Shown one piece after another: positions 1,689-45,305 of a stretch of DNA of 64,000 nucleotides. The translations under genes and the position numbers were made by a program. The DNA comes from Chthoniobacterales bacterium. GTDB lineage: Bacteria > Verrucomicrobiota > Verrucomicrobiia > Chthoniobacterales > UBA10450. Below the pieces are notes generated by a model. The model saw nothing but the letters and a program-made list of their open reading frames with translations. It made no database searches and had not been told where the DNA came from. Location of the stretch: contig DATENU010000016.1 of the NCBI GenBank assembly GCA_035274845.1, positions 62,001-126,000 on the forward strand. Reading direction: 5' to 3'. Position 1 is the first letter of the stretch, and the number at the start of each line of letters is the position of its first letter.

Positions 1689-3230
1689 ATGGCCAATCCA
1701 ACAACAGCCGCCAAAACCGCCATCACGCCCCGGCGCGATGAGGATTTCCCAGAGTGGTACCAACAGGTCATTCGCGCCGCCGAGATGGCCGAATCTTCCG
1801 ATGTGCGGGGCTCCATGGTCATTCGGCCCTGGGGTTACGGCATTTGGGAAAACATCCAGGGCCAGCTCGACGCGATGTTCAAGGCGACCGGGCATCGCAA
1901 CGCTTATTTTCCGCTCTTCATTCCGTTGAGTTACTTTGAGAGGGAAGCCGCGCACGTGGAAGGCTTCGCGAAGGAATGCGCTGTCGTCACCCACAGCCGG
2001 CTGGAGGTGAACGCGGAAGGAAAGATGGTGCCGGGCAGTCCGCTCACCGAACCGCTGGTGGTCAGGCCGACCTCGGAAACCATCATCGGCGCGAGCTACG
2101 CGAAGTGGGTCCAAAGCTACCGCGATCTTCCCATTCTCCTCAATCAGTGGTGCAACATTGTCCGCTGGGAAATGCGGCCTCGCATTTTCTTGCGCACGAC
2201 CGAGTTCCTCTGGCAGGAGGGGCACACCGTCCACGAGACAGAAGCTGAGGCTCGCGCGGAGACGAAACAGATGCTGGGCGTTTATGAAACGTTCGTGCGC
2301 GATCATCTGGCCATCCCGGTCTTTGGCGGGGAGAAATCGGAGAGCGAACGTTTCCCGGGCGCGGTCCAGACTCTTTGCATCGAGGCGATGGTCCAGGATC
2401 GTAAAGCCATCCAGGCCGGCACCTCCCATTTCCTCGGCCAGAACTTTGCCCGGGCCAGCGGAATTCAGTTCCACTCGCGCACGGGCACGCAGGAGTACGG
2501 ATGGACAACGAGCTGGGGAATGACCACGCGACTCATCGGCACCCTGATCATGGCGCACGGCGATGACGACGGCCTCGTCCTGCCGCCGAGAATCGCGCCC
2601 ACCCAGATCATTATTCTGCCGATCACTCCGAAAGAGGATACTCGCGACCGCGTTCTCGAGGCGGCCGACAAACTTGCCCTCGAGCTGCGCAAACTGGCGT
2701 TTTATGGGGCGCCGCTGGAAGTGGAAGTCGATAAACGAGATCTCGGGGGAGGACTCAAGAACTGGGAGTGGATCAAGAAAGGGGTGCCGTTGCGAGTGGA
2801 ATTAGGCCCTCGCGATTTGGAGTCGGGCAACGTCGCAGTGAGCCGCCGCGATCAGCCGGTAAAGGCCAAGGAGTTCATAGCGTCGTCAGAGTTTGTCAGC
2901 CGCGCCGTCGAAATCCTGGAGTCAATTCAGCAGAATCTTTTTGAGCGGGCAAAACAGTTTCGGGAAAGCAACACCCGTCTGATCGATTCGAAGGAAGAAT
3001 TCTACGAATTCTTTACCGCCAAAAATCCCGCCAAACCGGAGATTCACGGTGGGTTTGCGCTGACCCACTGGGATGGCTCGCGGCAGGTGGAGGAAAAGAT
3101 CAAGGCCGACCTGAAGGTCACGATCCGCTGCATTCCGTTCGACGACCCCGCCAAACCATCTCAAGCCGGCACCTGTCCCTTCACTGGAAACCCCAGCCCA
3201 CGCCGGGTGTTTTGGGCCAAGGCTTATTAG
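1689..3230 (+). CDS. proS: Prolyl-tRNA synthetase, short archaeal/eukaryal type
   Basis: This class II aminoacyl-tRNA synthetase of about 513 residues charges tRNA-Pro. Visible motifs are the PTSETIIG segment (about residue 130), motif 2 FLRTTEFLWQEGHT (about 165-180) and motif 3 around GTLIMAHGDDDGLVLPPR (about 285-300), followed by the anticodon-binding domain. The bacterial editing insertion is absent. The protein ends in a C-terminal domain closing with Tyr (FWAKAY), as is typical of the archaeal-type ProRS found in some bacteria. The ATG at 1689 is preferred over a TTG five codons upstream. It is transcribed alone. Confidence 0.95.
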   Translation: MANPTTAAKTAITPRRDEDFPEWYQQVIRAAEMAESSDVRGSMVIRPWGYGIWENIQGQLDAMFKATGHRNAYFPLFIPLSYFEREAAHVEGFAKECAVVTHSRLEVNAEGKMVPGSPLTEPLVVRPTSETIIGASYAKWVQSYRDLPILLNQWCNIVRWEMRPRIFLRTTEFLWQEGHTVHETEAEARAETKQMLGVYETFVRDHLAIPVFGGEKSESERFPGAVQTLCIEAMVQDRKAIQAGTSHFLGQNFARASGIQFHSRTGTQEYGWTTSWGMTTRLIGTLIMAHGDDDGLVLPPRIAPTQIIILPITPKEDTRDRVLEAADKLALELRKLAFYGAPLEVEVDKRDLGGGLKNWEWIKKGVPLRVELGPRDLESGNVAVSRRDQPVKAKEFIASSEFVSRAVEILESIQQNLFERAKQFRESNTRLIDSKEEFYEFFTAKNPAKPEIHGGFALTHWDGSRQVEEKIKADLKVTIRCIPFDDPAKPSQAGTCPFTGNPSPRRVFWAKAY

Positions 3231-3367
3231 CGCGCCGTAAAAACCCGCGTCGCTGAACACAGCAGCCTGTTCTACACAGATTTGGCTTGGTGCCGGATTT
3301 TCCGGGTGCTAAATTGTGCCTTGCGCCCCTTCCACGCAATAACCCACACCCCGGGGGACCACCCAAG

Positions 3368-4417
3368 ATGAGCAAATTTCTCTACACGATAAGCAATCGG
3401 CAAAGCGGCAATTCCGTCATCGGAATGGAAATTCAGGATACCGGTGATTTGCGGTTTGTCCCCGGCTCGCCATTTGTCACCGGCGGCAAAGGTTCGCGAT
3501 CGTCACAGAGCCAGAATGGCGCCTGGATCGATCACGATCTGCTTTACGCGGTTGATTTCGGCAGCAGCTCGTTCGCGATTTTTCGGAAGCAATCGGACGG
3601 CACGCTGACGCGGGCAAACGACCGCCCGATCGAGTCGCACGGGGTTAGCCCGTGCAGCGTTTGCGTGAGCGACGGCATCCTCTATGTCGTCAATCAGCAT
3701 ATTCGGAGTTCAGGGGGGAGGGCCGAGCCAAATCTCGCCGTTTTCGCAGTGAAAGGGTCGGGCGTCCGCTTTCTTGAAAGGAGCAGCTTCCCGTTCGCAC
3801 GCGGAGAGTCGCCAACCCAAGCGATCGTGAATCCTCAGGGAACGATCCTCGCGGTTCCCTCCGTGCGAACTCGCCGCAGTTTACTGCACTGCTATCGAAT
3901 TAAGCGCGGCACTGCCGGACCGACATTGACGGAGTTCGAAACGAGTCCCTTCGCCATTGCCGACAGTGGATTCGGTTTTGGATCCGTGTGGAACTCGGAC
4001 GGCAAAACGCTCTTCATGACCAATGCTACCGGCACAGGCTCGGTCGTCCGCCTCGACGTGGACATCGACTCCGGACGCATCACGGAAAAAGCGAGGGCGA
4101 CGACGCCCGGGAACGCGTGCTGGACGGCCCTGTCGTCGAACGGGAAGAGACTCTATGTCGCCAACCTTCTTTCCCTGCTCGTGTTTGACGTCTCGGGGAA
4201 TCGACTCGATCAAATTCAGAGTCTCGACGTTACAGATGTGAAGGGCCCGGTGTTGCGGGATCTTATCCTGGGGCCCGGCGGCAAATTCCTCTACGCAATC
4301 GAGCAGCGAAAGCGCCGCATCTTGATTTATGCCGTGGACGGGACAGGACGCGTCACACGTTCTGGGGAATTGGCGCTCGGCATCCCCGGCTACACCCTCG
4401 GGCTGGCGATCGGCTAG
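3368..4417 (+). CDS. Lactonase-like seven-bladed beta-propeller protein
   Basis: The protein has 349 residues from the ATG at 3368 (MSKFLYTISNRQSGNSVIG), with repeated blades such as GSPFVTGGKGSRSSQSQNG, SPFAIADSGFGFG and DLILGPGGKFLYAIEQRKRR. The blade grammar (F-L-Y-x-I, GSP-F, NP-G-T-I-L-A-V-P) is that of the 6-phosphogluconolactonase/YncE-like cytochrome-D1-type propellers. There is no signal peptide, so it is probably cytoplasmic. Members range from true lactonases to uncharacterised proteins, so no substrate is claimed. An in-frame extension upstream to 3287 is possible but looks non-coding. Confidence 0.75.
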   Translation: MSKFLYTISNRQSGNSVIGMEIQDTGDLRFVPGSPFVTGGKGSRSSQSQNGAWIDHDLLYAVDFGSSSFAIFRKQSDGTLTRANDRPIESHGVSPCSVCVSDGILYVVNQHIRSSGGRAEPNLAVFAVKGSGVRFLERSSFPFARGESPTQAIVNPQGTILAVPSVRTRRSLLHCYRIKRGTAGPTLTEFETSPFAIADSGFGFGSVWNSDGKTLFMTNATGTGSVVRLDVDIDSGRITEKARATTPGNACWTALSSNGKRLYVANLLSLLVFDVSGNRLDQIQSLDVTDVKGPVLRDLILGPGGKFLYAIEQRKRRILIYAVDGTGRVTRSGELALGIPGYTLGLAIG

Positions 4418-32311: not shown

Positions 32312-32581
32312 CTAGGCGGGAACCAAGCCGGCCTTTTTCAAGGTCGCGTAGGCGCCGTTCTTGTTCAGCGTCTTCATCCCCCGGGCAGTCACCCGAATGC
32401 GGACAAATTTCTTCAATTCGGGCACCCAGATTCTGCGCTCGTGCAGGTTCGGGCCAAAGGTGCGCGGCACGTTCTTGGTCACGTGGCGGCCGACGCCGCC
32501 CTTTTTCTTCGCCATACCGCGCCGGTGAATCACACTGCCGCGGGTGACTTTTGATCCTGTAATGCTGCAAACTTTTGCCAT
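32312..32581 (-). CDS. rpmB: 50S ribosomal protein L28
   Basis: The 89 residues from the ATG at 32581 begin MAKVCSITGSKVTRGSVIHR, then KNVPRTFGPNLHERRIWVPE and VRIRVTARGMKTLNKNGAY, the L28 signature. The frame upstream is not coding. It lies upstream of pheS and divergent from the oxidoreductase at 32804. Confidence 0.95.
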   Translation of the reverse strand: MAKVCSITGSKVTRGSVIHRRGMAKKKGGVGRHVTKNVPRTFGPNLHERRIWVPELKKFVRIRVTARGMKTLNKNGAYATLKKAGLVPA

Positions 32582-32803
32582 AACAAACCTCGAAGGTGCG
32601 TAAGCTGGCGCGCCCGCCCCGGTAGTCAAGCGAATCTTGAACGGACGCCGGGTGAGAGAGTCAAAGATAGTTCGTTTAGAAATATTGGCGTCTGAACGAT
32701 TTAGTGAATTAACGATTGGCAACCGTTGCGATTTCTAATTCGATAGGACCTGTTGTTCCCCCGGGTTATTCAAGCGCGAAACCTTTACCTTTAGCTGTCA
32801 GAC

Positions 32804-33844
32804 ATGAGCAAAACAAACAATCAAAAGCTGCGAATCGGAATTATCGGCGCCGGCGACATTGTGCGTAACCGGCACCTGCCCGGGCTGAAAAAGCAACCCG
32901 ATGTGGAAATCGTGGCGGTCTCAAATTCCAGCTACGAAAGCGCGGAGAAATTTTGCCAGGAGAATGTGCCCCATGCCACGCCGATGCAGAATTGGGCGGA
33001 CCTTCTTTCGATTCCGGAGATCGATATTGTCTGGATCGGAACTCCGCCCTACATGCACTCGGCTGTCACGATTTCGGCGCTCGAAGCCGGCAAACATGTC
33101 TTTTGCCAGGCCCGGATGTCGATGGACCGCGCGGAAGCGGAGGAGATGCTCGCCGCCTCGAAACGATTCTCGGAACAGGTCACGATGCTTTGTCCGCCTC
33201 CGTTCGGGCTAAAGGGTGATCTCCTCGTCAAAAAATTGCTGGCGGAGAATTATCTCGGCCGGCCCCACCACATTCGTCTCCAAAGTTTCACCGGCGCTTA
33301 TCTGAATGCCGACGCCCCGGCCCATTGGCGGCAGCGCATTGAGATCAGCGGGCTGAATGTTTTGGCGCTGGGGATTTATATCGAGGTGCTCCAGCGATGG
33401 TTTGGCGACATCACCGGTGTCTTTGCGCGCGGAAAAATTCTGCATGCGATTCGGCAAGGCTACGAGCTGATCGTGCCGGATTTGCTCACGGTGCTCTGCC
33501 ATTTTTCCAACGGCGCTGAAGGCGTTCTGGAATTCAGCGGAATCAACGCGTTGCCTTCGGGTGACCGTGTGGAGGTTTACGGGGACACGGGGACCATGAC
33601 CTATGATTTTGGGACGGACGTCATTAATGCCGGCCGAGCAGGCGACCGCGCCTTGCACGAGGTGGAGATAACGCCGGAGCTGGAGGGCGGCTGGCAGGTG
33701 GAAGAGGATTTCATCAACGCCGTGAGGTCCAAAGGCAAGATGCATCCGCATCCCGATTTCGAGGATGGCGTTCGCTACATGCGGGTCGTCCAGGCCGTCG
33801 CAGATTCGCGCGCCCGGAACGAGTGGGTGGAGATCATTCCCTGA
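32804..33844 (+). CDS. Gfo/Idh/MocA-family oxidoreductase
   Basis: This 346-residue NAD(P)-dependent oxidoreductase has the N-terminal Rossmann segment LRIGIIGAGDIVRNRHLPGL, the DIVWIGTPPYMHS motif and a C-terminal substrate domain. The usual catalytic signature EKP is replaced by CQARMSMDRAEAEE (Gln-Ala-Arg in place of Glu-Lys-Pro), so catalysis may be altered. It lies 163 bp upstream of the DprE1-like gene on the same strand, so it might act on a sugar in that pathway, but this is inference. The divergent gap with rpmB (222 bp) is otherwise featureless. Confidence 0.87.
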   Translation: MSKTNNQKLRIGIIGAGDIVRNRHLPGLKKQPDVEIVAVSNSSYESAEKFCQENVPHATPMQNWADLLSIPEIDIVWIGTPPYMHSAVTISALEAGKHVFCQARMSMDRAEAEEMLAASKRFSEQVTMLCPPPFGLKGDLLVKKLLAENYLGRPHHIRLQSFTGAYLNADAPAHWRQRIEISGLNVLALGIYIEVLQRWFGDITGVFARGKILHAIRQGYELIVPDLLTVLCHFSNGAEGVLEFSGINALPSGDRVEVYGDTGTMTYDFGTDVINAGRAGDRALHEVEITPELEGGWQVEEDFINAVRSKGKMHPHPDFEDGVRYMRVVQAVADSRARNEWVEIIP

Positions 33845-34007
33845 TCTGCCCTGGTCCTGTTCGCAGCAGTTGAGCGAGCCGCACCCTGCTTCTATTTTCC
33901 GCTCGCGGATTTCGAACGCCACTTGCCGCCATCGTCCAAAAGCTCTTGCTTGCTCCAGGGAGCACTTCCAAGATCGGCGCGCTCCGGTTGAGAACGGCAA
34001 GGTAACC

Positions 34008-35366
34008 ATGCGATCCAAGACAATGGAAATCAGCGGCTGGGGACGTTATCCCCGGGGAGTTTCCAGGGTTGTGCGCCCGGAGCGGATGAAAGAAGCGGTG
34101 CCTCCCCGCGAAGGGCAGGTGATCGCGCGCGGGCAGGGACGCAGCTATGGGCAGGCGGCCATGTCCGCCGATGGTTCGGTTATGCTAACCGAGCGCCTCA
34201 ATCGCTTCCTGGATTTCGACGATCGGCCCGGTGTTTTAAGGGCTGAAGCTGGAAGCACGATCGCCGAAGTGCTCGAGGCGTTTGTTCCGCGCGGCTGGTT
34301 TCCAGCGGTGACGCCCGGGACGAAGTTCGTCTCGCTCGGCGGCTGCGTCGCCGCGGATGTGCACGGGAAGAACCATCATCGCGTTGGAACTTTCGGTAAT
34401 CATGTGGAGGAAATCGAGCTGGTTCTGGCCGACGGCCAGCGGAAGCGCTGTTCGCCCCAACAGGAGAAGGAATTGTTCTGGGCCACCGTTGGTGGGATGG
34501 GCCTTACCGGCATCATCACCGAAATCGCCCTGCGGCTCATCCCCATTGAAACGGCTTCCGTGATTGCGCAGCATCATCCCGCGCGCAATCTCGATGAATC
34601 ATTGGAACTGCTCGAGAAGCGCGAGTTCGACGACGAATATACCGTAGCGTGGCTCGATTGCCTGGCGCGTGGAGAGAGCTTCGGCCGGAGCGTGTTGATG
34701 CGCGGCCATCACGCCAAAATTTCGGAGTTGCCTGCAGAAGTGAAGAAGCCTCTCGAATGGGAATCGGCCCAGCCGCGAAATATTCCGGCGAGTTTTCCGG
34801 GTTGGTTCCTAAAACCGTGGGGCGTCTCGCTCTTCAACCGGCTTTACTATTTTGCGCAGAGTAAAAAGAAGGGTCCGTTTGTTAGCTCCTGCGAGAAATT
34901 CTTTTATCCCCTGGATCGATTGGGAAATTGGAACCGCCTCTACGGCCGGCGCGGATTCGTGCAGTATCAATGTGTGGTCCCTTCGGTTCACGCGCGCCGG
35001 GGATTGCGGCTCATTTTGGAGGAGCTCGCCCGGAGCGGACGCGCCAGCTTCCTCACGGTCTTGAAACGTTTCGGCGCGGAAGGTCAGGGACTGCTTTCCT
35101 TTCCCACTGAAGGTTTCACACTCACGCTTGACCTGCCGATGACCGATTCCGGGTTGTTTCCGTTTCTAGATCGATTGGATGAGATCGTGCTCGAGCATGG
35201 AGGCCGCATCTACCTTGCGAAGGATGCCCGCGTTAAGGGTGAGACCTTCAGGGCCATGTATCCCCGATTTGCGGAATGGCAGCTAATCAAGGCCGCGGTA
35301 GATCTAAGCAATTGCTTCAGTTCCGATCTGGCGCGCCTGTTGGCCATGGGCGGCGCTCCAACGTGA
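34008..35366 (+). CDS. dprE1: DprE1-like FAD-dependent decaprenylphosphoryl-ribose oxidase
   Basis: The 452 residues start at the ATG at 34008, which has AAGG six bases upstream. The FAD-binding PCMH domain reads GQGRSYGQAAMSADG, then PGTKFVSLGGCVAADVHGKN followed by HHRVGTFGNHVEEIELVLA. This matches mycobacterial DprE1 very closely (HGKNHH...GSFGNHV). The C-terminal substrate domain has VQYQCVVP, SGRASFLTVLKRFGA and FRAMYPRFAEWQ, also DprE1-like. It would oxidise C2 of polyprenyl-phosphoryl-ribose to the 2-keto form, which DprE2 reduces to the arabinose form. The next gene overlaps its stop. Confidence 0.87.
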   Translation: MRSKTMEISGWGRYPRGVSRVVRPERMKEAVPPREGQVIARGQGRSYGQAAMSADGSVMLTERLNRFLDFDDRPGVLRAEAGSTIAEVLEAFVPRGWFPAVTPGTKFVSLGGCVAADVHGKNHHRVGTFGNHVEEIELVLADGQRKRCSPQQEKELFWATVGGMGLTGIITEIALRLIPIETASVIAQHHPARNLDESLELLEKREFDDEYTVAWLDCLARGESFGRSVLMRGHHAKISELPAEVKKPLEWESAQPRNIPASFPGWFLKPWGVSLFNRLYYFAQSKKKGPFVSSCEKFFYPLDRLGNWNRLYGRRGFVQYQCVVPSVHARRGLRLILEELARSGRASFLTVLKRFGAEGQGLLSFPTEGFTLTLDLPMTDSGLFPFLDRLDEIVLEHGGRIYLAKDARVKGETFRAMYPRFAEWQLIKAAVDLSNCFSSDLARLLAMGGAPT

Positions 35367-36103
35367 AAGAACCAGTGCTAATCCTGGGCGCAACCTCAGC
35401 GATCGCGCGGAGCGCGGCGGCCGCTTTCGCCGAAAAACGCTATTCGCTTTACCTGGCCGGGCGCGATGGAGAAGAGCTCGAGCGGCTGGCATCCGACTTC
35501 AGGCTCCGTTATCGAATAGAAGTTGGTTGGAGTCTCTTCGACGCGGAAGATTATGAGAGCCATGCCGGTTTCGTCGAACGAGTCCGGGGCGAGGTAGGAG
35601 GATTTCGAGGCGTGCTGCTTGCCTTCGGTTATCTTGCGGAACGGGGGCTGGCCGAGAGCGATTCGAAAGAGCGGGTGGCTGTGCTGGCGCGCAATTTGAT
35701 CGGCGCGGCCAGTATTCTTGAGCCCCTGGCGGCCTGTCTGGAGCAACAGCGATCGGGCTTCGTGATCGGGATTTCGTCCGTGGCGGGAGATCGCGGACGG
35801 CAAAGCAATTACATTTACGGCGCGGCCAAGGGAGGATTCACCATTTATTTGCAAGGGCTTCGCAACCGGCTTTCTCACGCCGGGGTGCGGGTCGTGACCA
35901 TAAAGGCCGGCTTTGTGGATACCGCGATGACCTATGGGATGCCCGGCCTCTTTTTGGTGGCGTCGCCTGAGTACGTCGGAGGTCGGATCGTTCGAGCCTT
36001 GGAGAGGGGGAGCAATGTCGCCTACATTCCGTGGTTCTGGCGTTACATCATGCTGGTGATCAAACTGATTCCCGAATCGCTTTTCAAGCGATTGAAACTC
36101 TGA
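35363..36103 (+). CDS. dprE2: DprE2-like short-chain dehydrogenase
   Basis: The 246 residues start with GTG at 35363, overlapping the dprE1 stop (GTGA). The SDR fold has LILGATSAIARSAAAAFAEK as the NAD-binding loop and the catalytic Ser-Tyr-Lys in GISSVAGDRGRQSNYIYGAA then KGG. The GDRGRQSNYIYGAAKGG pattern is typical of DprE2, which reduces the 2-keto-erythro-pentofuranose intermediate to the arabinofuranosyl donor. A C-terminal hydrophobic stretch (YIMLVIKLIPESLF) may tether it to the membrane, as expected for a lipid-linked substrate. Confidence 0.85.
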   Translation: MKEPVLILGATSAIARSAAAAFAEKRYSLYLAGRDGEELERLASDFRLRYRIEVGWSLFDAEDYESHAGFVERVRGEVGGFRGVLLAFGYLAERGLAESDSKERVAVLARNLIGAASILEPLAACLEQQRSGFVIGISSVAGDRGRQSNYIYGAAKGGFTIYLQGLRNRLSHAGVRVVTIKAGFVDTAMTYGMPGLFLVASPEYVGGRIVRALERGSNVAYIPWFWRYIMLVIKLIPESLFKRLKL

Positions 36104-36122
36104 ACGAAACCTCTCTCTCGTT

Positions 36123-37586
36123 CTAGAGGGCCAGATACATCACCAGGCCGGCGAGTATTCCGACACAGTAGCTTGGCCAGTCGCGGAGCGCGAAAATGAC
36201 TGGATCATCGTGCATCAGGCCGCGCGTGGTAAGAATCCAGACCCGGCTTATCCAGTACAGGAGCAACGGGCAAATGAAGAGGAGGATGGCCGGATGGCGA
36301 TAGAGCACGGTGACTTCCGGGTTCATCACATAGAGGACCAAAACCAGGACGGAAACAATGCCGCTCGCCACTCCCAACGCTGCCACCAGGGGCAGGTCGG
36401 CGGACAAATATCCCCTCGAGCGCGACATGCCGGAAGCATCTTCGAGTAGTTCCGAACAGCGTTTTACCAGAGCAAGGCTCAGGAAGAAGAACATCGAAAA
36501 CGCCAGCAGCCAGACCGAGATGGGAATATTGGTCGCCGCGCTGCCGGCGAAGATTCTCAGCGTGTAAAATCCGGCCAGCACGAGGACATCCATGATGGCG
36601 ATGCGCTTGAAAAAGCTGGAGTAAGCGAAGCTCATCCCGAAGTAACCGAGCAGAATGACGCCCAGAGCGGGCAGGCGGGCGACGAATGCCAGGAAGATTC
36701 CGGCTAACAGGAGCAGGGTCGCGAGGATGAAGCCGTCGCCCACGTTCAATTCGCCCGCGGGCAACGGCCGGAGCCGTTTGATCCGGTGGGCCCGGTCCGC
36801 CTCCAGATCGAGAAGGTCGTTAACGAGATAAACGCTCGAGGAGACGAGACTAAAAGCCAGGAAGGCGAGCGCCCCCTTGGCAAAAATCCGGGGATTGGCG
36901 ATTTCATGCGCCATGATGACGGGCACAAAGATCAGAAGGTTTTTGGACCATTGATGGAGGCGCATCGCGGGCGCGAGAGCGTTGAGCCCTCTCTGAGCCG
37001 GCTTGATCTCAGTGGCGGATGTTACCGCCTGCGCCTGTCGAAACAATTGCCGCTTGTGCGTAACCACGAATCCCTGGCGGGCGGCGCCCCAAACGGGAAG
37101 ATCGGCTCGGGCATCGCCCACGTAGTCGAACTGCTTCCGGCCGAATCTTTGTTCGAGAGCGGCTTGCTTGTGCTCCGCTTTCAAATTCACCGAGCCGCGA
37201 GTCGCGATCACCTCGTTAAAGCATCGGAGATGCTCCGCGACTCTGTTGGCCATCAATTCATGCGCCGCGGACACGAGAACGATGGGCCGTTTGGCTGCTC
37301 GCGCCTGATCGATCAAAGCAAGGACTTCCTCTCGATACGGGAGCAGCTCGCAATTCGGGACGGCTCGGCGCGCAATTTCGTACTTAAAACTGGCAATTCC
37401 CTTCGCCAACCAAAGCGGAAAGCGGAGCAAGGCGCTCGGGTTCTTCCTTATCAGAAGAAATGCTCCCTCCCAAAGGAGGTCTGTCTTCACCAGCGTCCCA
37501 TCGAGATCGACGCAGAGAGGGATGCTCGCCGAATCACTCATTCCCGCCGGGAGCGGCAGAGCCGAGGTCTCCATGATTGATTCCAT
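36123..37586 (-). CDS. HAD phosphatase-UbiA prenyltransferase fusion
   Basis: The protein has 487 residues. The N-terminal ~200 are a HAD domain with motif I CVDLDGTLVKTDLLWEG, motif II VLVSAAHELMANRVAE and motif IV FDYVGDARADLPVW. The rest is a polytopic UbiA domain with NDLLDLEADRAHRIKRLRPL, which resembles the NDxxDxEADRxHPxKRxRPIA motif of mycobacterial Rv3806c, and SSFFKRIAIMDVLVLAGFYT as the second Asp-rich region. It would transfer 5-phosphoribose from PRPP to a polyprenyl phosphate, and the HAD domain may then remove the 5-phosphate. It converges on dprE2 with a 19-bp gap. An alternative start is the ATG at 37574. Confidence 0.87.
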   Translation of the reverse strand: MESIMETSALPLPAGMSDSASIPLCVDLDGTLVKTDLLWEGAFLLIRKNPSALLRFPLWLAKGIASFKYEIARRAVPNCELLPYREEVLALIDQARAAKRPIVLVSAAHELMANRVAEHLRCFNEVIATRGSVNLKAEHKQAALEQRFGRKQFDYVGDARADLPVWGAARQGFVVTHKRQLFRQAQAVTSATEIKPAQRGLNALAPAMRLHQWSKNLLIFVPVIMAHEIANPRIFAKGALAFLAFSLVSSSVYLVNDLLDLEADRAHRIKRLRPLPAGELNVGDGFILATLLLLAGIFLAFVARLPALGVILLGYFGMSFAYSSFFKRIAIMDVLVLAGFYTLRIFAGSAATNIPISVWLLAFSMFFFLSLALVKRCSELLEDASGMSRSRGYLSADLPLVAALGVASGIVSVLVLVLYVMNPEVTVLYRHPAILLFICPLLLYWISRVWILTTRGLMHDDPVIFALRDWPSYCVGILAGLVMYLAL

Positions 37587-37701
37587 ACGATGATGCTCGT
37601 TTCGGTAACACGTAAGCAGAAAAGCACGGAAGGCACGAGCCGGATTTGCGGGTGCGCTCCGAAACCGGCTCTACTGGTGAAGGGCCTTTCGGTCTTCGGC
37701 G

Positions 37702-39501
37702 ATGATGTTACTATCCAGACTTTGCCCGATGATCCAGATAGCCACGCGAAAAGAGAAGATCACCCTGACGGTCATTTCCCTGGCCACCGTGATAGCGGTT
37801 TATTGCGGCTGGCGCCTGTTCTGGTTTCTCACTGACGACGCCTTTATCGCCTTCCGCTACATCAGTAACGGCCATTTGGGCTACGGCTATGTTTGGAACG
37901 CGCCCCCTTTCCGGCCGGTGGAAGGGTACACAAGTTTTCTCTGGGTGGTGTTGCTGGATGTCGTCTGGCGCATCACTGGAGTCGAGCCGCCGGCGGCCGC
38001 GAATAATATTGCCCTCCTCTTTACCTATCTGACGCTGCTGCTCGGCGGGCTGATTGTCCTGAAGCTGAAACTGACGGAGCGGCTGCAAAAATATCGACTG
38101 CTTTTTCTCGGCCTGGTCTTTGCCGGGGTGGTCACGAACCGCACTTTTCTGGCCTGGACCAGCTCCGGCCTGGAGACAGCGATGTTCAATTTCTTTCTCA
38201 CCCTTTGGATCTACTGCTCCCTGTTCATCGAGAATACCGGGCGCCGATGGATGTTCTGGCTGAGCCTGACTACGGCATTGCTCTGTTTGACACGGCCCGA
38301 CGGATTGCTCTTCGCGATGGCAACGGTCGTGGTGTTAATCAAAGCGTTCTGGGAGCAACGGACGACCATTTCATCGCCACCCGTGTTCGCAAAACTGGCG
38401 CTCGGAGCCACACCCCTCTTGATAATTCCAATGCACGTTTTGTGGAGGCACGCCTTTTACGGGAGCTGGTTGCCTAACACCTACTATGCGAAAGCAATCT
38501 CGGGCCGATGGTGGTACGAGAGCGGGTTCAGGTATCTCGCGTGTTTCGTGTTGGAGTATGCTCTCTGGATTTGGTTGTTGCTGGTTCTGGCTGCGCTCCT
38601 GGTCGGACTCCGGCGGATCAAATCTCTCCGCGAATTGGTGAAGCTTCCCACGACCAATCTGCTGGTGATCCTGACGGTCCTGGGCCACGTGTGTTACTAC
38701 ACCATCATCATTGGCGGAGACCATTTCGAGTATCGCGTTTTCAGTCAGTTGATTCTGCTCATTTTCATTACCTTTTTGTGGGCGCTGAATGGCCTCGGCC
38801 TATCCGCCAAGATCGCGGCGCCGCTGTTCGCTTTTTTTATTGTCCTTTCGTGGCCGATTCCATGGCTCCACTGGGGAGCTACTCACAATCTGATCCTTCG
38901 CCGTCAGACGTATTACATGACTGGCTCGGTCGCCAAGGTGCTAAAAATGCAGGTGCCGTGGACCCCGTATTTCGTCCTGAGATACATTTCGGCATTCGAT
39001 AGAATGCAGTTCTGGCTGATCGAGCGCAGCGTCTGCATGCGCCATCAGGAGCATAAGATATTTTATGTCTACCAGACTTCGATCCTTCCGCCCCGCGAGG
39101 AAGGCATGCGTCTGCCGGCGGCGGGATATCCGGTTACGCCGGCTACTTCAGTCGGAGTTATTTCGTGGGTCCTGCCGCACGTTAACATTATCGATACGAT
39201 GGGATTGAACGACTATGTCGTGGCCCGCAATCCAAAGCTCAGGCTGCCAGCCCAGATGGCGCACGACCGACAGCCTCCGAAAGGTTATGTCGAATGTTTT
39301 TCTCCGAATATGGCTTTCACTCCGAAGCATGCCGCCATCAAACAGCGCCCAGTGGAATTAACTGCGGAAAAGATCGTTCAGTGCGAACAGGAATATGCGG
39401 CGCTGGTGGCCCGCGGACTCTCCGAAATGCCGTCGCCGACTCCAATTGCCGCTGCGTCAGCCGCCATGCCATCGCCAACCGCGTCGCCCGTCGAACCATA
39501 A
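37702..39501 (+). CDS. GT-C membrane glycosyltransferase, AftB/ZomB-like
   Basis: This 599-residue protein has about ten hydrophobic segments over the first 430 residues and a soluble C-terminal part ending in an Ala/Pro/Thr tail. The first extracytoplasmic loop holds LTDDAFIAFRYISNGHLGYG and RPVEGYTSFLWVVLLDV, the Asp-Asp and VEGYT signature of the AftB (Rv3805c) arabinosyltransferase family and its relatives. Such enzymes use a polyprenyl-phosphate sugar donor outside the membrane. An in-frame ATG at 37729 is an alternative start. With dprE1/E2 and UbiA next door, a D-arabinofuranose donor is likely; the acceptor is unknown. Confidence 0.82.
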   Translation: MMLLSRLCPMIQIATRKEKITLTVISLATVIAVYCGWRLFWFLTDDAFIAFRYISNGHLGYGYVWNAPPFRPVEGYTSFLWVVLLDVVWRITGVEPPAAANNIALLFTYLTLLLGGLIVLKLKLTERLQKYRLLFLGLVFAGVVTNRTFLAWTSSGLETAMFNFFLTLWIYCSLFIENTGRRWMFWLSLTTALLCLTRPDGLLFAMATVVVLIKAFWEQRTTISSPPVFAKLALGATPLLIIPMHVLWRHAFYGSWLPNTYYAKAISGRWWYESGFRYLACFVLEYALWIWLLLVLAALLVGLRRIKSLRELVKLPTTNLLVILTVLGHVCYYTIIIGGDHFEYRVFSQLILLIFITFLWALNGLGLSAKIAAPLFAFFIVLSWPIPWLHWGATHNLILRRQTYYMTGSVAKVLKMQVPWTPYFVLRYISAFDRMQFWLIERSVCMRHQEHKIFYVYQTSILPPREEGMRLPAAGYPVTPATSVGVISWVLPHVNIIDTMGLNDYVVARNPKLRLPAQMAHDRQPPKGYVECFSPNMAFTPKHAAIKQRPVELTAEKIVQCEQEYAALVARGLSEMPSPTPIAAASAAMPSPTASPVEP

Positions 39502-39544
39502 GCTCTGCGGCCGCCAGGTACCACGAAGAATAGCCTTGTTGGGA

Positions 39545-41410
39545 ATGCAGCCGTCAGAGCCACCTACCGACAGAAGACGCCTGATATTCGTTAGCGTTGC
39601 GGGGCTGGTATTTTCCGCGGCCCTGATTTGGCATGCCCGGTATTACATGCCGTTTTTGTCGGACGACGCGCTGATTTCGTTACGCTATCTCAAGCGATTC
39701 CTGCATGGAGAGGGACTAACGTGGACGGCGGGTCGGCCTGTCGAAGGTTATTCGAATCTGCTATGGATCCTTTTGTTGGCCATTCCGGGCGTAGTCGGAG
39801 TGGATTTGATCAACGCGGCGAGGGTTCTCGGTATTGGATGCTCGATCCTGGTTATTGTTTCGCTCCTGGCGTGGCCTCCGCGAAACCGTGCCTCGCGGCA
39901 GGTGCCCTGGCTACCCCTAGTAACCGGTCTTCTTTTTTACTGCCTGGCCGCGCCCACCGCGGTGTGGGCCATCGGGGGACTCGAACAACCGTTGTACGCC
40001 TGTTTGTTAGCCGCCGCCCTTCCGCTCGGATTCTCCATCATGGAATCCGAGGAACTCGATCAAAGAAAAATCCTGGCCGTGTCCCTGGCGCTGGGTCTCC
40101 TGTGCCTGACCAGGCCGGATGGTCCTATCTTTACCGTCGCGTTCTTCCTCGCGTTCGTTTTCGCCTGGGGAATTTCAGGATCCAGACGACGTCTGCGCGG
40201 ATTGCTAACCTTGGTTTCGTTACCGCTGCTTTGTTTTGTGGGTCAAACAACCTTCCGCCTGTTTTATTATGGCGAACTGGTGGCGAACACAGCTCGGGTG
40301 AAAATTGCGCCGTCCCTCTATCACCTGTCGGAAGGGTTGAAGTATGTCTCCAACGGCATCGGTAGTCTCGCGCCGTTTTCCTACATCGCCCTTTTTTATC
40401 TGGTCGTTGCGGTGTGGTTCCGTTCGACGAGAAGGCGAAGCGTTTTGCTGCTTCTCTGCACCGCTTTGTGGATTCCCTACCTCGTTTTCATAGGCGGCGA
40501 TATCTTTCCGGCTTACCGGCTTTTTGTCCCATTAATGCCCGTCTTTGCTTTCGCGCTCATTGAGGCGATTGCCGCCCTCCAATCCTTTTTCAAGGAGAAG
40601 AATCTTGCTGTCTGGCTCATCGCCCTGGCGCTAACCGCCTCCTTCGTTGTTTACGGAAAGATCCAATTCAGGAATCCGGAAAACCAAAGGGGCAAGACGG
40701 AACTTTGGGAATGGGACGGCCAGGTGCTGGGACTGTTCCTGAAGAAGGCCTTCGGGCCGCAGCAACCTCTGGTCGCTGTCACGGCCGCTGGATGCATTCC
40801 CTATTGGTCCGAGCTTCCATCCCTGGATATGCTTGGGCTGACCGACTATTACCTGCCCCGCCATCCGCCCAGTGATTTAGGACAAGGATATCTGGGGCAT
40901 GAACTGGGAGACGGAAATTACGTGATGGAGCAAAAGCCGGACATCATTACTTTCCATGCGGGGGTGAGGAAGCCGGTTTTTCGCAGTGGAATGGAAATGT
41001 TTAAGAGCGGTGACCTCGTTCGCTGGTATACGCCAGTTAACGTTCTCGGCACCTTTCCCTACGCCTGCCGGGCTACTTTCTGGGTTCGGCAGGAGAGCAA
41101 CAAGATCGGCGTTCGCCGGACGCCGGATGAGGTTGAGATTCCTGCTTACCTCTTATCCGGCAATCGCGCTTCGGCAGCTCAGTTCAACGCTGAGGACAAG
41201 CTCATTCTGCCAGTGTCAGTGAAAGAACCAGCTGGAATGAACATTTTGGATCCCTTGCCCGGAAACTGGACCTGTGAAGTCGTCTCGCGAAATGCGCAGG
41301 CGATCGATTGCAAGGTGATGCCAGGAGGCTCCTCGACCCCGGTTCAATTGACGACCAACAGCCTGGCTCCAATTGAAATCGAAAAGGTGATCCTGAGGAA
41401 AGTGCCCTGA
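39545..41410 (+). CDS. Second GT-C membrane glycosyltransferase, AftB/ZomB-like
   Basis: This 621-residue paralogue of the preceding gene starts at the ATG at 39545 (MQPSEPPTDRRRLIFVSVAG); the frame extends upstream over the previous 3' end but that part is not coding. The first loop has FLSDDALISLRYLKRFLHGE and RPVEGYSNLLWILLLAIPG, again the DDAxIS and VEGY motifs. A HMM-scale alignment would be needed to measure divergence from the first copy. The soluble C-terminal region (about 430-621) lies outside the membrane. It follows the first copy after 43 bp, so the two are probably cotranscribed. Confidence 0.82.
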   Translation: MQPSEPPTDRRRLIFVSVAGLVFSAALIWHARYYMPFLSDDALISLRYLKRFLHGEGLTWTAGRPVEGYSNLLWILLLAIPGVVGVDLINAARVLGIGCSILVIVSLLAWPPRNRASRQVPWLPLVTGLLFYCLAAPTAVWAIGGLEQPLYACLLAAALPLGFSIMESEELDQRKILAVSLALGLLCLTRPDGPIFTVAFFLAFVFAWGISGSRRRLRGLLTLVSLPLLCFVGQTTFRLFYYGELVANTARVKIAPSLYHLSEGLKYVSNGIGSLAPFSYIALFYLVVAVWFRSTRRRSVLLLLCTALWIPYLVFIGGDIFPAYRLFVPLMPVFAFALIEAIAALQSFFKEKNLAVWLIALALTASFVVYGKIQFRNPENQRGKTELWEWDGQVLGLFLKKAFGPQQPLVAVTAAGCIPYWSELPSLDMLGLTDYYLPRHPPSDLGQGYLGHELGDGNYVMEQKPDIITFHAGVRKPVFRSGMEMFKSGDLVRWYTPVNVLGTFPYACRATFWVRQESNKIGVRRTPDEVEIPAYLLSGNRASAAQFNAEDKLILPVSVKEPAGMNILDPLPGNWTCEVVSRNAQAIDCKVMPGGSSTPVQLTTNSLAPIEIEKVILRKVP

Positions 41411-41493
41411 TGTTTGATTGATGGATGTTGCTGCTGCTGCCCGGGGAGATTTTTGCCTTGCTCGGGCTGGAGGTGAAAAGGAGGATGAGGACA

Positions 41494-43596
41494 ATGTTAC
41501 AGAAAACACTGAGTCATTACACGCTGCTATTTGCTTTGTTATTTGGTGCCGGTGCGGAATTAACGGCTCAGCCTTCCCGGCCCGAAGGTTCGATGCTGAA
41601 TCCGGGACCGGATCTCATCGTAAGCGACATAGGTGCTCCGCAACAGTTTGGCAGTAACGGCACGCAGGTCGCCCTCGCGATGCCACCGACGGCCTGCAAT
41701 ATCGGCGACGTGGAGGTGAATTTTTTCCAATTAGGAAATACCGACCATCCTGTGATTGCCCAGAGTATTTATCGAATGAGCGGCGGCGCGAGCAACACCG
41801 AGCGCTTTGAGCAGATTGGGGAAGCCTGGATCAAGCATGCGTTTGGGGCGGACCAAATCGATGGCTGCGATCTCGGCTGCGTTCCCGCGTCCAGCTTCGC
41901 CAAGCTGGGAGTAGGCTGCTCTGACACATATGACGCCAGTACCGGGGCGCAATTTACTCAGCTCGGTTCGCGCGCCTGGGTGAACCCATTCACGGGCGCC
42001 TTTCCATCGACTTCGAACGATCATTCCGGCCATACCCACAACGGCACGTCGCACCGGCTTGCCGTGGAGGCGAACGATTTGAAACCCAGCATGAATCCGG
42101 GGGCCACGTATTTTTCGGAGGTCCAGTACGTTACTCCGCACGAATACGCGTGGTGCCAGGCGCACCCCGGACAATGCAACATGTACAACAACGCTTCCTA
42201 CTGCCCTTTTAGCGTTACCGGCACCACAAGTTTCACTTTTTCCAATACTGGTCCGACCATGAAAACGATGCCTGCCATCAGTGCCTGGACCGGTGCGACC
42301 ATCAAGACGATAGAGCCGGAGCCGGGAGTCGATGGGCGTGCTTTCATTGCCTACAAGGTTACCGGCCCCGTCGCGGGCATCTGGCACTACGAATATGCGA
42401 TCTATAATCAAAATCTCGATCGCGCGGTTCAATCGTTCAGTATCCCCCTGGGCTGCGGAGTCACGCTGAGCAATCTCGGGTTCCACGCTCCGCGTAATCT
42501 TGCTGGTTTTGCCAATGACGGGACCCAGGGAAACGCCGGATATAGCAACGCGGAGTGGACTTCGACCCAGACGGCCAGCAGCCTGAGCTGGACTTCCGAG
42601 ACCTTCGCCCAAAACGAAAATGCCAACGCGATCCGCTGGACCACCACCTATAGTTTTCGTTTTGACTCCGACCGTGCGCCGGGAGCGGTAAATGCAACGA
42701 TCGGCTTTCTCAAGACCGGGGCGCCCATGACCGTCGGAATCCAAGGTCCGGATGTTACCTGCGGCGGTGGGACGCCGACGCCGACGCCGGTGCCGGGCCC
42801 GGCCTCGCAGGCGCTCAATCTCTCAACCCGGATGCTGGTTCAAGCCGGCGACAACGCGGGCATTGGAGGCTTCATCGTCACGGGGAGTGCTCCCAAACAT
42901 CTACTCATTCGGGCCCTCGGACCTTCGCTGACCGGGTTCGGTATCTCCAATGCGCTGGCCGATACAGTCCTCGAACTGCACGGTCCAGCCGGATTTGTGA
43001 CGATTACGGACGATAACTGGAGAGACGATCCCGCGCAGGAAACCGCCATCATGGCCTCGGGCATCGCGCCTTCCAATAATCTGGAATCGGCGATTGATGT
43101 CACCGTTAATCCCGGCTCCTACACCGCGGTGCTAACGGGTAAGAACAACAGTTCCGGTGTCGCCGTGGTTGAAGTTTACGACCTCAATCAGGCAACTTCA
43201 TCGAAGCTGGCCAATCTCAGCACCCGCGCCTTCGTCAGCACGGGGAATGATATCGTGATTGCGGGATTCATTCTCGGTGGCAACATCGGCAGTGATCGGA
43301 TTGTAGCGCGCGGGATCGGCCCCAGCCTCAGTGGTTCCGGTGTGCCTAATCCTCTCGCGAACCCGATGCTCGAATTGCGCGATAGCAACGGCGCTCTCCT
43401 GGCTGCCAATAACGACTGGCAGGATAACGCAGCCCAGGCAGCGGAACTTACCGCGGCCGGCCTGGCGCCGACAAACAATCTCGAATCCGGCATTGCGACG
43501 ACGCTACCGCCCGGCGCTTACACCGCGTTACTCAAGGGCGCGAACAACGGTACCGGCATCGGCCTTGTGGAAGTTTACGATCGCGGGGCGCCGTAG
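41494..43596 (+). CDS. Large secreted protein with two tandem C-terminal modules
   Basis: This protein of about 700 residues starts at the ATG at 41494 (AGGAGG nine bases upstream), giving a signal peptide (MLQKTLSHYTLLFALLFGAG). Residues about 30-430 form a Cys-containing beta-rich domain I do not recognise (SDIGAPQQFGSNGTQVALAM, GHTHNGTSHRLAVEAND). A TPTPTPVPG linker follows. Two repeats of about 130 residues end the protein, each with LNLSTRMLVQAGDN or LANLSTRAFVSTGND, IGGFIVTG, an IRALGPSL-type motif, and a closing VVEVYD. The same paired module ends the protein at 51022. Confidence 0.8.
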   Translation: MLQKTLSHYTLLFALLFGAGAELTAQPSRPEGSMLNPGPDLIVSDIGAPQQFGSNGTQVALAMPPTACNIGDVEVNFFQLGNTDHPVIAQSIYRMSGGASNTERFEQIGEAWIKHAFGADQIDGCDLGCVPASSFAKLGVGCSDTYDASTGAQFTQLGSRAWVNPFTGAFPSTSNDHSGHTHNGTSHRLAVEANDLKPSMNPGATYFSEVQYVTPHEYAWCQAHPGQCNMYNNASYCPFSVTGTTSFTFSNTGPTMKTMPAISAWTGATIKTIEPEPGVDGRAFIAYKVTGPVAGIWHYEYAIYNQNLDRAVQSFSIPLGCGVTLSNLGFHAPRNLAGFANDGTQGNAGYSNAEWTSTQTASSLSWTSETFAQNENANAIRWTTTYSFRFDSDRAPGAVNATIGFLKTGAPMTVGIQGPDVTCGGGTPTPTPVPGPASQALNLSTRMLVQAGDNAGIGGFIVTGSAPKHLLIRALGPSLTGFGISNALADTVLELHGPAGFVTITDDNWRDDPAQETAIMASGIAPSNNLESAIDVTVNPGSYTAVLTGKNNSSGVAVVEVYDLNQATSSKLANLSTRAFVSTGNDIVIAGFILGGNIGSDRIVARGIGPSLSGSGVPNPLANPMLELRDSNGALLAANNDWQDNAAQAAELTAAGLAPTNNLESGIATTLPPGAYTALLKGANNGTGIGLVEVYDRGAP

Positions 43597-43617
43597 CGTG
43601 TCCCGCCGCTCCTGAAA

Positions 43618-44646
43618 TTATTGGGCTAACCGCGCCAGGACATAGCCGATCAAACCGGTAGCAGGCAGGGTCAGAAGCCACGCCCAGACGATTCGCTCGA
43701 CGACGGTCCACTTCACGCCGCTGAAGCGTTTCACGGCGCCGACGCCCATGATCGACGTCGAGATGACGTGCGTCGTCGAGAGCGGAATCCCCCAGTGGCT
43801 CGCCACTTGGATGATCACCGCTGCAGTCGTTTCCGCGGCGAAACCGTGCACCGGCTGCAACTTCACCATTTTGTGGCCGAGCGTGCGAATGATTCGCCAG
43901 CCACCTGCAGCCGTTCCCGCGGCCATGGTGGCGGCACAGAGGACAATGACCCAGGGAGCGACGACAAATTCGGGGGTATGCAGGAAGGCGAACATCGGCG
44001 GCAGATCCTTGAACGCGCCGCTCTTGGTGCCAGTGAAAAGAGCCAGGGCGATAATTCCCATGGTTTTCTGGGCATCGTTGGTCCCGTGGCTGTGGGCCAT
44101 CCACGCGGCACTGATCAACTGGGCTTTGCCGAAAATCTTGTGAACGATATGGGGCGTGAATGATCGGAGCAGGAGAAACAGCAGGGCCATCAGAATTCCA
44201 CCAAGCAGAAAGCCCACGACCGGCGAGGTGAACATCGGCACGACTACTTTCGGCATGAGGCCAGTGTCCCACTTGAGCACCGACCAGTTGCCCTTGGCCG
44301 AGGCGAGCGCCGCACCGCAGAGGCCGCCGATGAGTGCGTGGCTGGAACTCGAGGGCAGGCCCAACCACCACGTCAGCAGGTTCCAGATGATTGCGCCCAG
44401 CAACGCGCAGAGCACCGTCGTCATGGTGATCACTTTGGAATCGACAATGCCTTTGCCGATGGTCGAAGCGACCGCGGTTCCCATCAGGGCGCCGGTGAGA
44501 TTAAAAAACGCAGCCAGCGCGATCGCCTGGCGCGGAGTCAGGACTTTTGTGGAAACGACCGTGGCGATGGCGTTGGCCGCATCATGGAAACCGTTGATGT
44601 ATTCAAAGGCGATGGCCGCGAGCACCACGATGATGAACAGGACCAT
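43618..44646 (-). CDS. pit: PiT-family low-affinity phosphate transporter
   Basis: This 342-residue integral membrane protein with about nine to ten helices carries the two inverted PD001131-like halves, NGFHDAANAIATVVSTKVL and AWMAHSHGTNDAQKTMGIIA. It imports metal-phosphate or phosphate with protons or sodium. It is followed directly by its DUF47/PhoU-like partner gene on the same strand (20 bp), the usual pairing. The secreted module protein's 3' end converges on it. Confidence 0.93.
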   Translation of the reverse strand: MVLFIIVVLAAIAFEYINGFHDAANAIATVVSTKVLTPRQAIALAAFFNLTGALMGTAVASTIGKGIVDSKVITMTTVLCALLGAIIWNLLTWWLGLPSSSSHALIGGLCGAALASAKGNWSVLKWDTGLMPKVVVPMFTSPVVGFLLGGILMALLFLLLRSFTPHIVHKIFGKAQLISAAWMAHSHGTNDAQKTMGIIALALFTGTKSGAFKDLPPMFAFLHTPEFVVAPWVIVLCAATMAAGTAAGGWRIIRTLGHKMVKLQPVHGFAAETTAAVIIQVASHWGIPLSTTHVISTSIMGVGAVKRFSGVKWTVVERIVWAWLLTLPATGLIGYVLARLAQ

Positions 44647-44666
44647 GCGATGTGCCTGGAGTGGAG

Positions 44667-45305
44667 CTAGGAGTACTTGAGCACGACCTGGAGAATAATG
44701 TTCCCCGCGTCGCGGCAGCGGTCGATCACCTTCTCGAGAAGTTCATAGAGATCGCGCAGGAAAATGATCTGCTTCGTGTCGTATTGCCCGTGAAACAGGT
44801 CCCGGAGCAGCTCGAGCTCCAGCTTGTCCGCGTCGCCCTCGATCGTTTGCAGTCGTTCATTTTTTTCCCGGGCCGTCGCCACATCGGTGCCCTTGCGAAG
44901 TTCTTTAACCATGGCCAAAACGGTCTCCGCCGCCTGGTCGAGCAATTCCAAATGTTTTTCGAAACTGCGCCCGTGGAGGTCGCCGGGGAAAATCACCACC
45001 CGCTCACCAATTTTCTCCACGGTCTTCGGAATCTTGTAGAGCGCGTCCGCCAGGGCCTGGATATCTTCGCGTTCCAGCGGGGTGATGAACGTCTTGCAAA
45101 GCTGTTCGGTCAGCTCCTGGGTAATTTCTTTGTCCCGCCGGCGGCTATTGACGAAATTCTCCAGGCTTTCAGGTGATTCGTGCTGCTCGAGTTTCGCCAG
45201 TAAGGCGATCAAATGATGGACGCTACTGTCGGCCTGCTCGGCGCTGGCCTCCAGCAGGTCGAAAAACTTTTCGTCGTGTCCCAGGAATTTTCGGATCGAG
45301 AACAT
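44667..45305 (-). CDS. DUF47 (PhoU-like) accessory protein of the phosphate transporter
   Basis: The 212 residues start at the ATG at 45305 (MFSIRKFLGHDEKFFDLLEA). It is an all-helical PhoU-like protein with VEKIGERVVIFPGDLHGRSF and EKVIDRCRDAGNIILQ, characteristic of DUF47 proteins that accompany PiT transporters (TIGR00153 type). It probably controls transport from the cytoplasmic side. It lies 8 bp downstream of mgtE and 20 bp upstream of pit. Confidence 0.9.
   Translation of the reverse strand: MFSIRKFLGHDEKFFDLLEASAEQADSSVHHLIALLAKLEQHESPESLENFVNSRRRDKEITQELTEQLCKTFITPLEREDIQALADALYKIPKTVEKIGERVVIFPGDLHGRSFEKHLELLDQAAETVLAMVKELRKGTDVATAREKNERLQTIEGDADKLELELLRDLFHGQYDTKQIIFLRDLYELLEKVIDRCRDAGNIILQVVLKYS

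Follow-up and report, generated by a model that had tools for sequence, protein, structure and literature searches.

A predicted D-arabinofuranosylation module on a probably acquired genomic island of a Chthoniobacterales bacterium

Introduction

Can a member of the Verrucomicrobiota make a D-arabinofuranose (Araf) donor by enzymes related to those of mycobacteria and, if so, how did the genes reach its genome? The question is raised by five genes at positions 34008-41410 of a 64,000-nucleotide stretch of DNA (the window, whose numbering is used below; contig DATENU010000016.1, positions 62,001 to 126,000, assembly GCA_035274845.1) from a Chthoniobacterales bacterium. A reading of the nucleotide sequence, here called the original prediction, had proposed that a bacterium outside Actinobacteria carries an Araf donor pathway together with two transferases resembling AftB. 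The core of this proposal is borne out by family matches and conserved residues. We consider it quite likely that the genes form a horizontally acquired D-arabinofuranosylation module, in which lipid-linked Araf would be made and then attached outside the membrane.

Gene content and proposed pathway

All five genes were found where they had been predicted, and the motifs quoted for them, HGKNHH...GTFGNHV for DprE1 and EADRAHRIKRLRP for UbiA, are literally present. After refinement of start sites from context and overlaps, the block reads as follows:

34008-35366, plus strand: dprE1, predicted polyprenyl-P-ribofuranose 2-oxidase dependent on flavin adenine dinucleotide (FAD); ATG start at 34008; assigned by NF053785, DprE1 structures in the PDB and active-site residues
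35363-36103, plus strand: dprE2-like short-chain dehydrogenase/reductase (SDR), predicted 2-keto-pentofuranose reductase; GTG start, 4-bp overlap with the dprE1 stop
36123-37586, minus strand: PRP-PPPRS fusion (HAD and UbiA domains); assigned by Pfam UbiA and HAD, PRK08238 and Rv3806c (PDB 8j8j)
37702-39501, plus strand: glycosyltransferase of the GT-C fold (GT-C A), predicted AftB-like pentofuranosyltransferase; assigned by homology to GT-C B, family profile, Foldseek and residues
39545-41410, plus strand: GT-C B, predicted AftB-like pentofuranosyltransferase whose C-terminal part is rich in beta structure; ATG start at 39545; assigned by NF041481, AftB in the PDB, Foldseek and residues

The assignments of the original prediction hold at the level of residues. 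Two features had escaped it: the UbiA gene is on the opposite strand, facing dprE2 (both GT-C genes then follow on the plus strand), and its product carries an N-terminal HAD domain. The profile searches that it had suggested, and searches of the PDB, gave similarity far above chance to DprE1, DprE2, Rv3806c-type proteins and AftB.

With these enzymes, the PRP-PPPRS fusion would act at the membrane and transfer 5-phosphoribose from 5-phosphoribosyl 1-pyrophosphate (PRPP) to polyprenyl phosphate, giving polyprenyl-P-ribofuranose-5-phosphate (polyprenyl-P-Ribf-5-P), from which its HAD domain would remove the 5-phosphate to leave polyprenyl-P-beta-D-ribofuranose. DprE1 would oxidise C2 and DprE2 would reduce it with inversion, yielding polyprenyl-P-beta-D-arabinofuranose. 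A flippase encoded outside the island would present this donor on the outer side, where the two AftB-like GT-Cs would move Araf to an extracytoplasmic acceptor, perhaps sequentially or on two acceptors. For the early steps (PRP-PPPRS and DprE1/DprE2), support comes from homology to enzymes of tested activity and from the conservation of active sites; the substrates, lipid, linkage, acceptor and flippase are the parts of the scheme that we infer. The precedent of AftB suggests a beta-Araf linkage by retention. By analogy, the carrier is probably undecaprenyl phosphate, which is usual in Gram-negatives (PMC11127046); the "decaprenyl" in the name first given to the module is not supported.

DprE1 and the DprE2-like reductase

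The dprE1 product matched the NCBIfam model NF053785 with 451 bits (E-value 7e-135), about 400 bits above the next FAD family, and its top PDB matches were mycobacterial DprE1 structures (Mycobacterium smegmatis DprE1, E 3e-98). The equivalents of H132, K134, Q334, Q336, K367 and K418 of M. tuberculosis DprE1 are all kept, and they were invariant in 104 of 104 aligned homologues. The product is a DprE1 homologue and is predicted to work like DprE1.

Residue C387 of the M. tuberculosis enzyme, which we take to be the covalent target of benzothiazinones, corresponds to Thr (T373) in the window protein. Across the 104 sequences this position holds Ala in 93, Thr in six, Ser in three and Cys in two, the last being M. 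tuberculosis and our locus L049. Since the position is mostly occupied by residues other than Cys, most DprE1 homologues should resist covalent trapping by benzothiazinones there, and the trapped cysteine is nearly private to the mycobacterial form of the enzyme.

For the dprE2 product, the best PDB match was M. tuberculosis DprE2 (E about 8e-26 to 9e-26), followed by the next SDR at 1.5e-12. The Tyr-Lys pair of SDRs is kept, with YGAAK (Y152, K156) aligning with YGSTK of M. tuberculosis DprE2. We use the label "DprE2-like" because of this best match and because dprE2 adjoins dprE1 in 90 of the 100 loci in our neighbourhood sample (80 named and 20 verrucomicrobial), its score with the family model lying below the cut-off (see below).

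The PRP-PPPRS fusion

Pfam assigned an N-terminal HAD and a C-terminal UbiA domain to the UbiA-gene protein, and PRK08238 matched it with 596 bits (cut-off 351). The UbiA half matched Rv3806c (PDB 8j8j) with E 2e-26, and models of the Rv3806c type scored about 100 bits higher than UbiA models of the heme-o and ubiquinone types. The HAD motifs CVDLDGTL (starting at residue 25) and GDARADLP are present, as are the NDxxDxxxD and RxxE motifs of Rv3806c and Citrobacter ORF15 (N256, D257, D260, D264; R376, E379), whose spacing is identical to that in ORF15 (N247, D248, D251, D255; R366, E369). ORF15 has the same HAD-UbiA architecture and was shown biochemically to make polyprenyl-P-Ribf from PRPP; its HAD (PRP) domain strips the 5-phosphate, a step credited to Rv3807c in mycobacteria (PMC11127046). 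By analogy, the fused HAD domain should supply this dephosphorylation here, and the single fusion protein should lead from PRPP to polyprenyl-P-ribofuranose.

These results also bear on the view that the block is a chance set of neighbours, namely an FAD oxidase and an SDR of generic type, a quinone-type UbiA (menaquinone-type in the original prediction, which had raised this view itself) and two unknown membrane proteins. By the NCBIfam cut-offs the dprE2 product would be named only an "SDR family oxidoreductase" and the fusion only a "UbiA family prenyltransferase". However, the margins of DprE1 over the next FAD family and of the Rv3806c-type models over the heme-o and ubiquinone types, the retained catalytic residues and a neighbourhood conserved over many phyla led us to reject this combination, which we regard as hardly credible.

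The two GT-C enzymes

GT-C A and GT-C B are homologous to each other (26% identity, E 5e-15) and are the only members of their family found in the genome. No Pfam match was obtained for either of them, relaxed E-values included. In NCBIfam, AftB (NF041481) was the sole family matched, by GT-C B only (E 5e-8, 31 bits); at relaxed E-values nothing was found for GT-C A, and no ZomB model was matched by either protein. Used as a single sequence, GT-C B matched AftB in the PDB with E 2e-6. A profile built from both enzymes plus relatives located near other dprE1 genes matched PDB AftB with E 4.8e-36, and no other glycosyltransferase was matched.

Foldseek searches with the predicted models ranked AftB first for GT-C A and for GT-C B, and VIA-align Z-scores placed the folds of oligosaccharyltransferases and protein mannosyltransferases (PMTs) level with AftB. 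Because the GT-C fold is common to these enzymes, fold alone was not used to name the two proteins. The AftB structure paper lists D62, T91, E172, R221, T274 and R372 as catalytic or donor-binding residues. All six positions are matched in GT-C A (D46, T77, E158, R198, T260, R345) and in GT-C B (D41, S70, E147, R190, T249, R325), with Ser in place of T91 in the latter. Both are AftB-like proteins by sequence, and not AftB, because the equivalog cut-off of that family (1050 bits) is missed by a wide margin. Of the "AftB/ZomB-like" character originally given to them, the profile match and the residues uphold the AftB part, while the ZomB part found no model to support it.

It is possible, though unlikely, that the donor pathway runs as described and that one or both GT-Cs use another lipid-linked sugar or polyprenyl-P-Ribf, in which case the product would not be (only) D-Araf. 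GT-C enzymes can be promiscuous, as ORF12 takes both Ribf and xylofuranose (Xylf) donors (PMC11127046). In addition, a plasmid search with GT-C B gave three distant matches, two of which were inspected and had no dprE1 near them, and such plasmid-borne relatives without a nearby dprE1 match still keep the AftB-like motifs. On the other hand, the GT-C genes of the window share the inserted segment with the donor genes, no further member of their family was found in the genome, the Araf-contacting residues of AftB are kept, and AftB-like GT-C genes were observed near dprE1 in five other loci. Transfer of Araf is the reading that we prefer.

Points against the proposed pathway

Several observations weigh against an Araf pathway in this block. 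The DprE1 score is below the NF053785 equivalog cut-off of 500 bits, as are the scores in all 27 verrucomicrobial genomes that gave a match. The DprE2 model gave only 159 bits (equivalog cut-off 250), and the generic SDR model PRK07102 gave 285 bits (cut-off 267) on the same protein. The GT-C models are of low confidence (mean predicted local distance difference test, pLDDT, of 55-57), and the similarity of these enzymes to AftB is distant, at about 20-23% identity. No flippase is encoded in the island, and GtrA is absent from the whole genome, whereas a GtrA gene is nearby in 26 of the 100 dprE1 loci. The acceptor glycan is not identifiable from sequence, and the pathway is predicted here from its genes.

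MatE and LPG_synthase_TM genes are located on other contigs of the genome, and one of these proteins is MurJ by Pfam; they were not assignable as the flippase of the module. In two DprE modules without a GtrA match, an LPG_synthase_TM (PF03706) gene adjoins the UbiA gene (L052:7473-8426 and L053:14681-15637), and its product may flip the lipid-linked sugar in those modules instead of GtrA.

Distribution of DprE modules

The original prediction could not confirm that a verrucomicrobial module of this type had been described. This class of pathway is already published: three-component pentofuranose systems, including DprE1/DprE2 variants for Araf, have been reported in Gram-negatives (Kelly et al., 2024; PMC11127046), and D-Araf on the pilin of Pseudomonas aeruginosa was known earlier (cited in PMC11841053). 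No paper joining Verrucomicrobia, arabinofuranose and decaprenyl was found in a literature search made largely without subscription papers.

In genome contigs, at least 572 relatives of DprE1 were confirmed, with 80 named loci among those listed. The listed loci span more than 10 phyla, such as Pseudomonadota, Bacteroidota, Actinomycetota, Myxococcota, Chlorobiota, Nitrospirota, Acidobacteriota, Planctomycetota and Kiritimatiellota. In 67 of the 100 loci of the neighbourhood sample, dprE1 has a UbiA gene no more than 7 kb away, and in 32 this gene is HAD-fused. Annotated Rhizobium and Azospirillum plasmids carry UbiA, GtrA and DprE1 genes with an SDR gene close by, and close DprE1/DprE2 relatives (L051-L053) are accompanied by PMT_2-type GT-Cs. 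DprE modules are common, and the transferase in them can be exchanged for one of another kind. The novelty of the present case lies in its verrucomicrobial host, its mosaic composition and its pair of AftB-type enzymes; the module is a clear new example, ordinary in kind, and not a new type of system.

One metagenome-assembled genome (MAG) record titled Klebsiella pneumoniae (L130) contains a dprE1-dprE2-PPPRS module. Its DprE1 groups with that of a Pseudomonadales MAG, and the species label may be wrong.

Origin of the island

The original prediction had spoken of a verrucomicrobial module and had named conservation in relatives as a test. DprE1 was found in none of seven same-genus and none of 29 same-family genomes, and PRP-PPPRS was absent from all seven congeners; the module is not a trait of this lineage. 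The phylum is Verrucomicrobiota as GTDB defines it, since the DprE1s of a same-phylum family (f37) interleave with a named Kiritimatiellales record. The following features define the surrounding segment:

33846-43630, no strand assigned: inserted segment (island); assigned by the empty site in a congener and by GC content at third codon positions (GC3)
32804-33844: Gfo/Idh/MocA gene, left flank of the island
41425-43596, plus strand: 723-aa protein, predicted to be secreted, from a family expanded in the genus; within the inserted segment and 3' of the GT-C genes
43618-44646: PiT-type phosphate permease gene, right flank of the island

In one congener (G001, locus L145) the flanking Gfo/Idh/MocA and permease genes are 62 bp apart, compared with 9,785 bp in the window. 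Positions 32312-33845 of the window align to 961-2459 of L145 and positions 43631-45238 to 2522-4130, and the gene for the 723-aa protein is also absent from this empty site. The five pathway genes have a GC3 of 0.68, against 0.745 (SD 0.034) in neighbouring genes.

In the phylogenetic tree, DprE1 of the window groups with sequences from gammaproteobacterial MAGs, Paraperlucidibaca and Holophagaceae (supports 98/90, 97/82 and 100/98). The DprE2 tree agrees with the DprE1 tree, and the PRP-PPPRS protein falls in a separate HAD-fused clade. The empty site, the absence from 36 genomes, the two DprE trees with the approximately unbiased (AU) test described below and the lower GC3 together indicate a horizontally acquired, mosaic island. 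Because exact 10-base repeats were not found at its ends and no tRNA gene was found in the window, we propose no mobile-element mechanism. The flanks match the genus and a member of a genus-expanded family lies inside the segment, which argues against a chimeric contig.

Could the five genes instead be an old verrucomicrobial trait that was lost from the relatives? Of 388 genomes sampled from the phylum, 27 do contain DprE1, and other families of the same class are among them. However, verrucomicrobial DprE1s sit at several separate places in the tree, and a forced clade of the window DprE1 with same-class DprE1s was rejected by the AU test (p-AU 3.7e-5 and 1e-36). Considering also the gammaproteobacterial affinity of the window DprE1, the empty site and the absence from the 36 genomes of the genus and family, many repeated losses would be needed, and an ancestral origin appears very improbable. 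Here the predicted D-Araf donor pathway forms a compact island in a lineage otherwise without it.

The family of the 723-aa protein has 24 reported matches in its own genome, from 147 first-look candidates, and paralogues in related genomes too; the stretch shared most widely covers about 270 aa at the C-terminal end. There is a small chance that the island serves protein arabinosylation of this secreted family, with the AftB-like enzymes acting in sequence. If true, this would amount to D-Araf decoration of proteins in Verrucomicrobiota by transferases of a kind not described for such a system. Beside the permease gene, members of the genus (L144, L146 and L147) differ in the genes they carry, and this region is a possible hot spot of insertion.

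Comparison with known systems

With two AftB-type transferases tied to a fused PRP-PPPRS in a bacterium outside Actinobacteria, the island provides a small set of enzymes in which the use of polyprenyl-P-Araf by the AftB family could be tested without the mycobacterial arabinogalactan machinery. Its closest parallels are three systems. Like the D-Araf system of group IV pilin in P. aeruginosa (TfpW; cited in PMC11841053), the island would combine a polyprenyl-P-Araf donor pathway with a GT-C outside Actinobacteria; unlike that system, it has no pilin gene beside it. In P. aeruginosa the PPPRS lacks the PRP domain (PMC11127046) that is fused to it in the island.

With ORF12-ORF15 of Citrobacter youngae O1/O2 the island would share a PRP-PPPRS fusion leading to polyprenyl-P-Ribf and a GT-C acting outside the membrane, and with the Araf variants of the three-component systems it shares DprE1/DprE2 as an optional epimerase (PMC11127046). 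In Citrobacter a MATE flippase is linked to the genes, whereas the island has none; the published description places ORF12 (GT136) nearest to ArnT (PMC11127046), whereas the two GT-Cs of the island resemble AftB. The host is verrucomicrobial, and the island is not beside a recognisable O-antigen locus.

The mycobacterial decaprenylphosphoryl-arabinose pathway differs in that its 5-phosphatase is Rv3807c and not a fused HAD domain, in its Rv3789-type (GtrA) flippase, which the present genome lacks, in the presumed benzothiazinone target Cys387, replaced by Thr here, and in its lipid, which is probably undecaprenyl in this organism. For the block, neither Pfam nor NCBIfam pointed to Emb, AftA, AftC or AftD. 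At the same time, DprE1, DprE2, Rv3806c and AftB all have homologues in the island, and phosphoribosyl transfer, 2-epimerisation and AftB-type transfer should follow the same chemistry.

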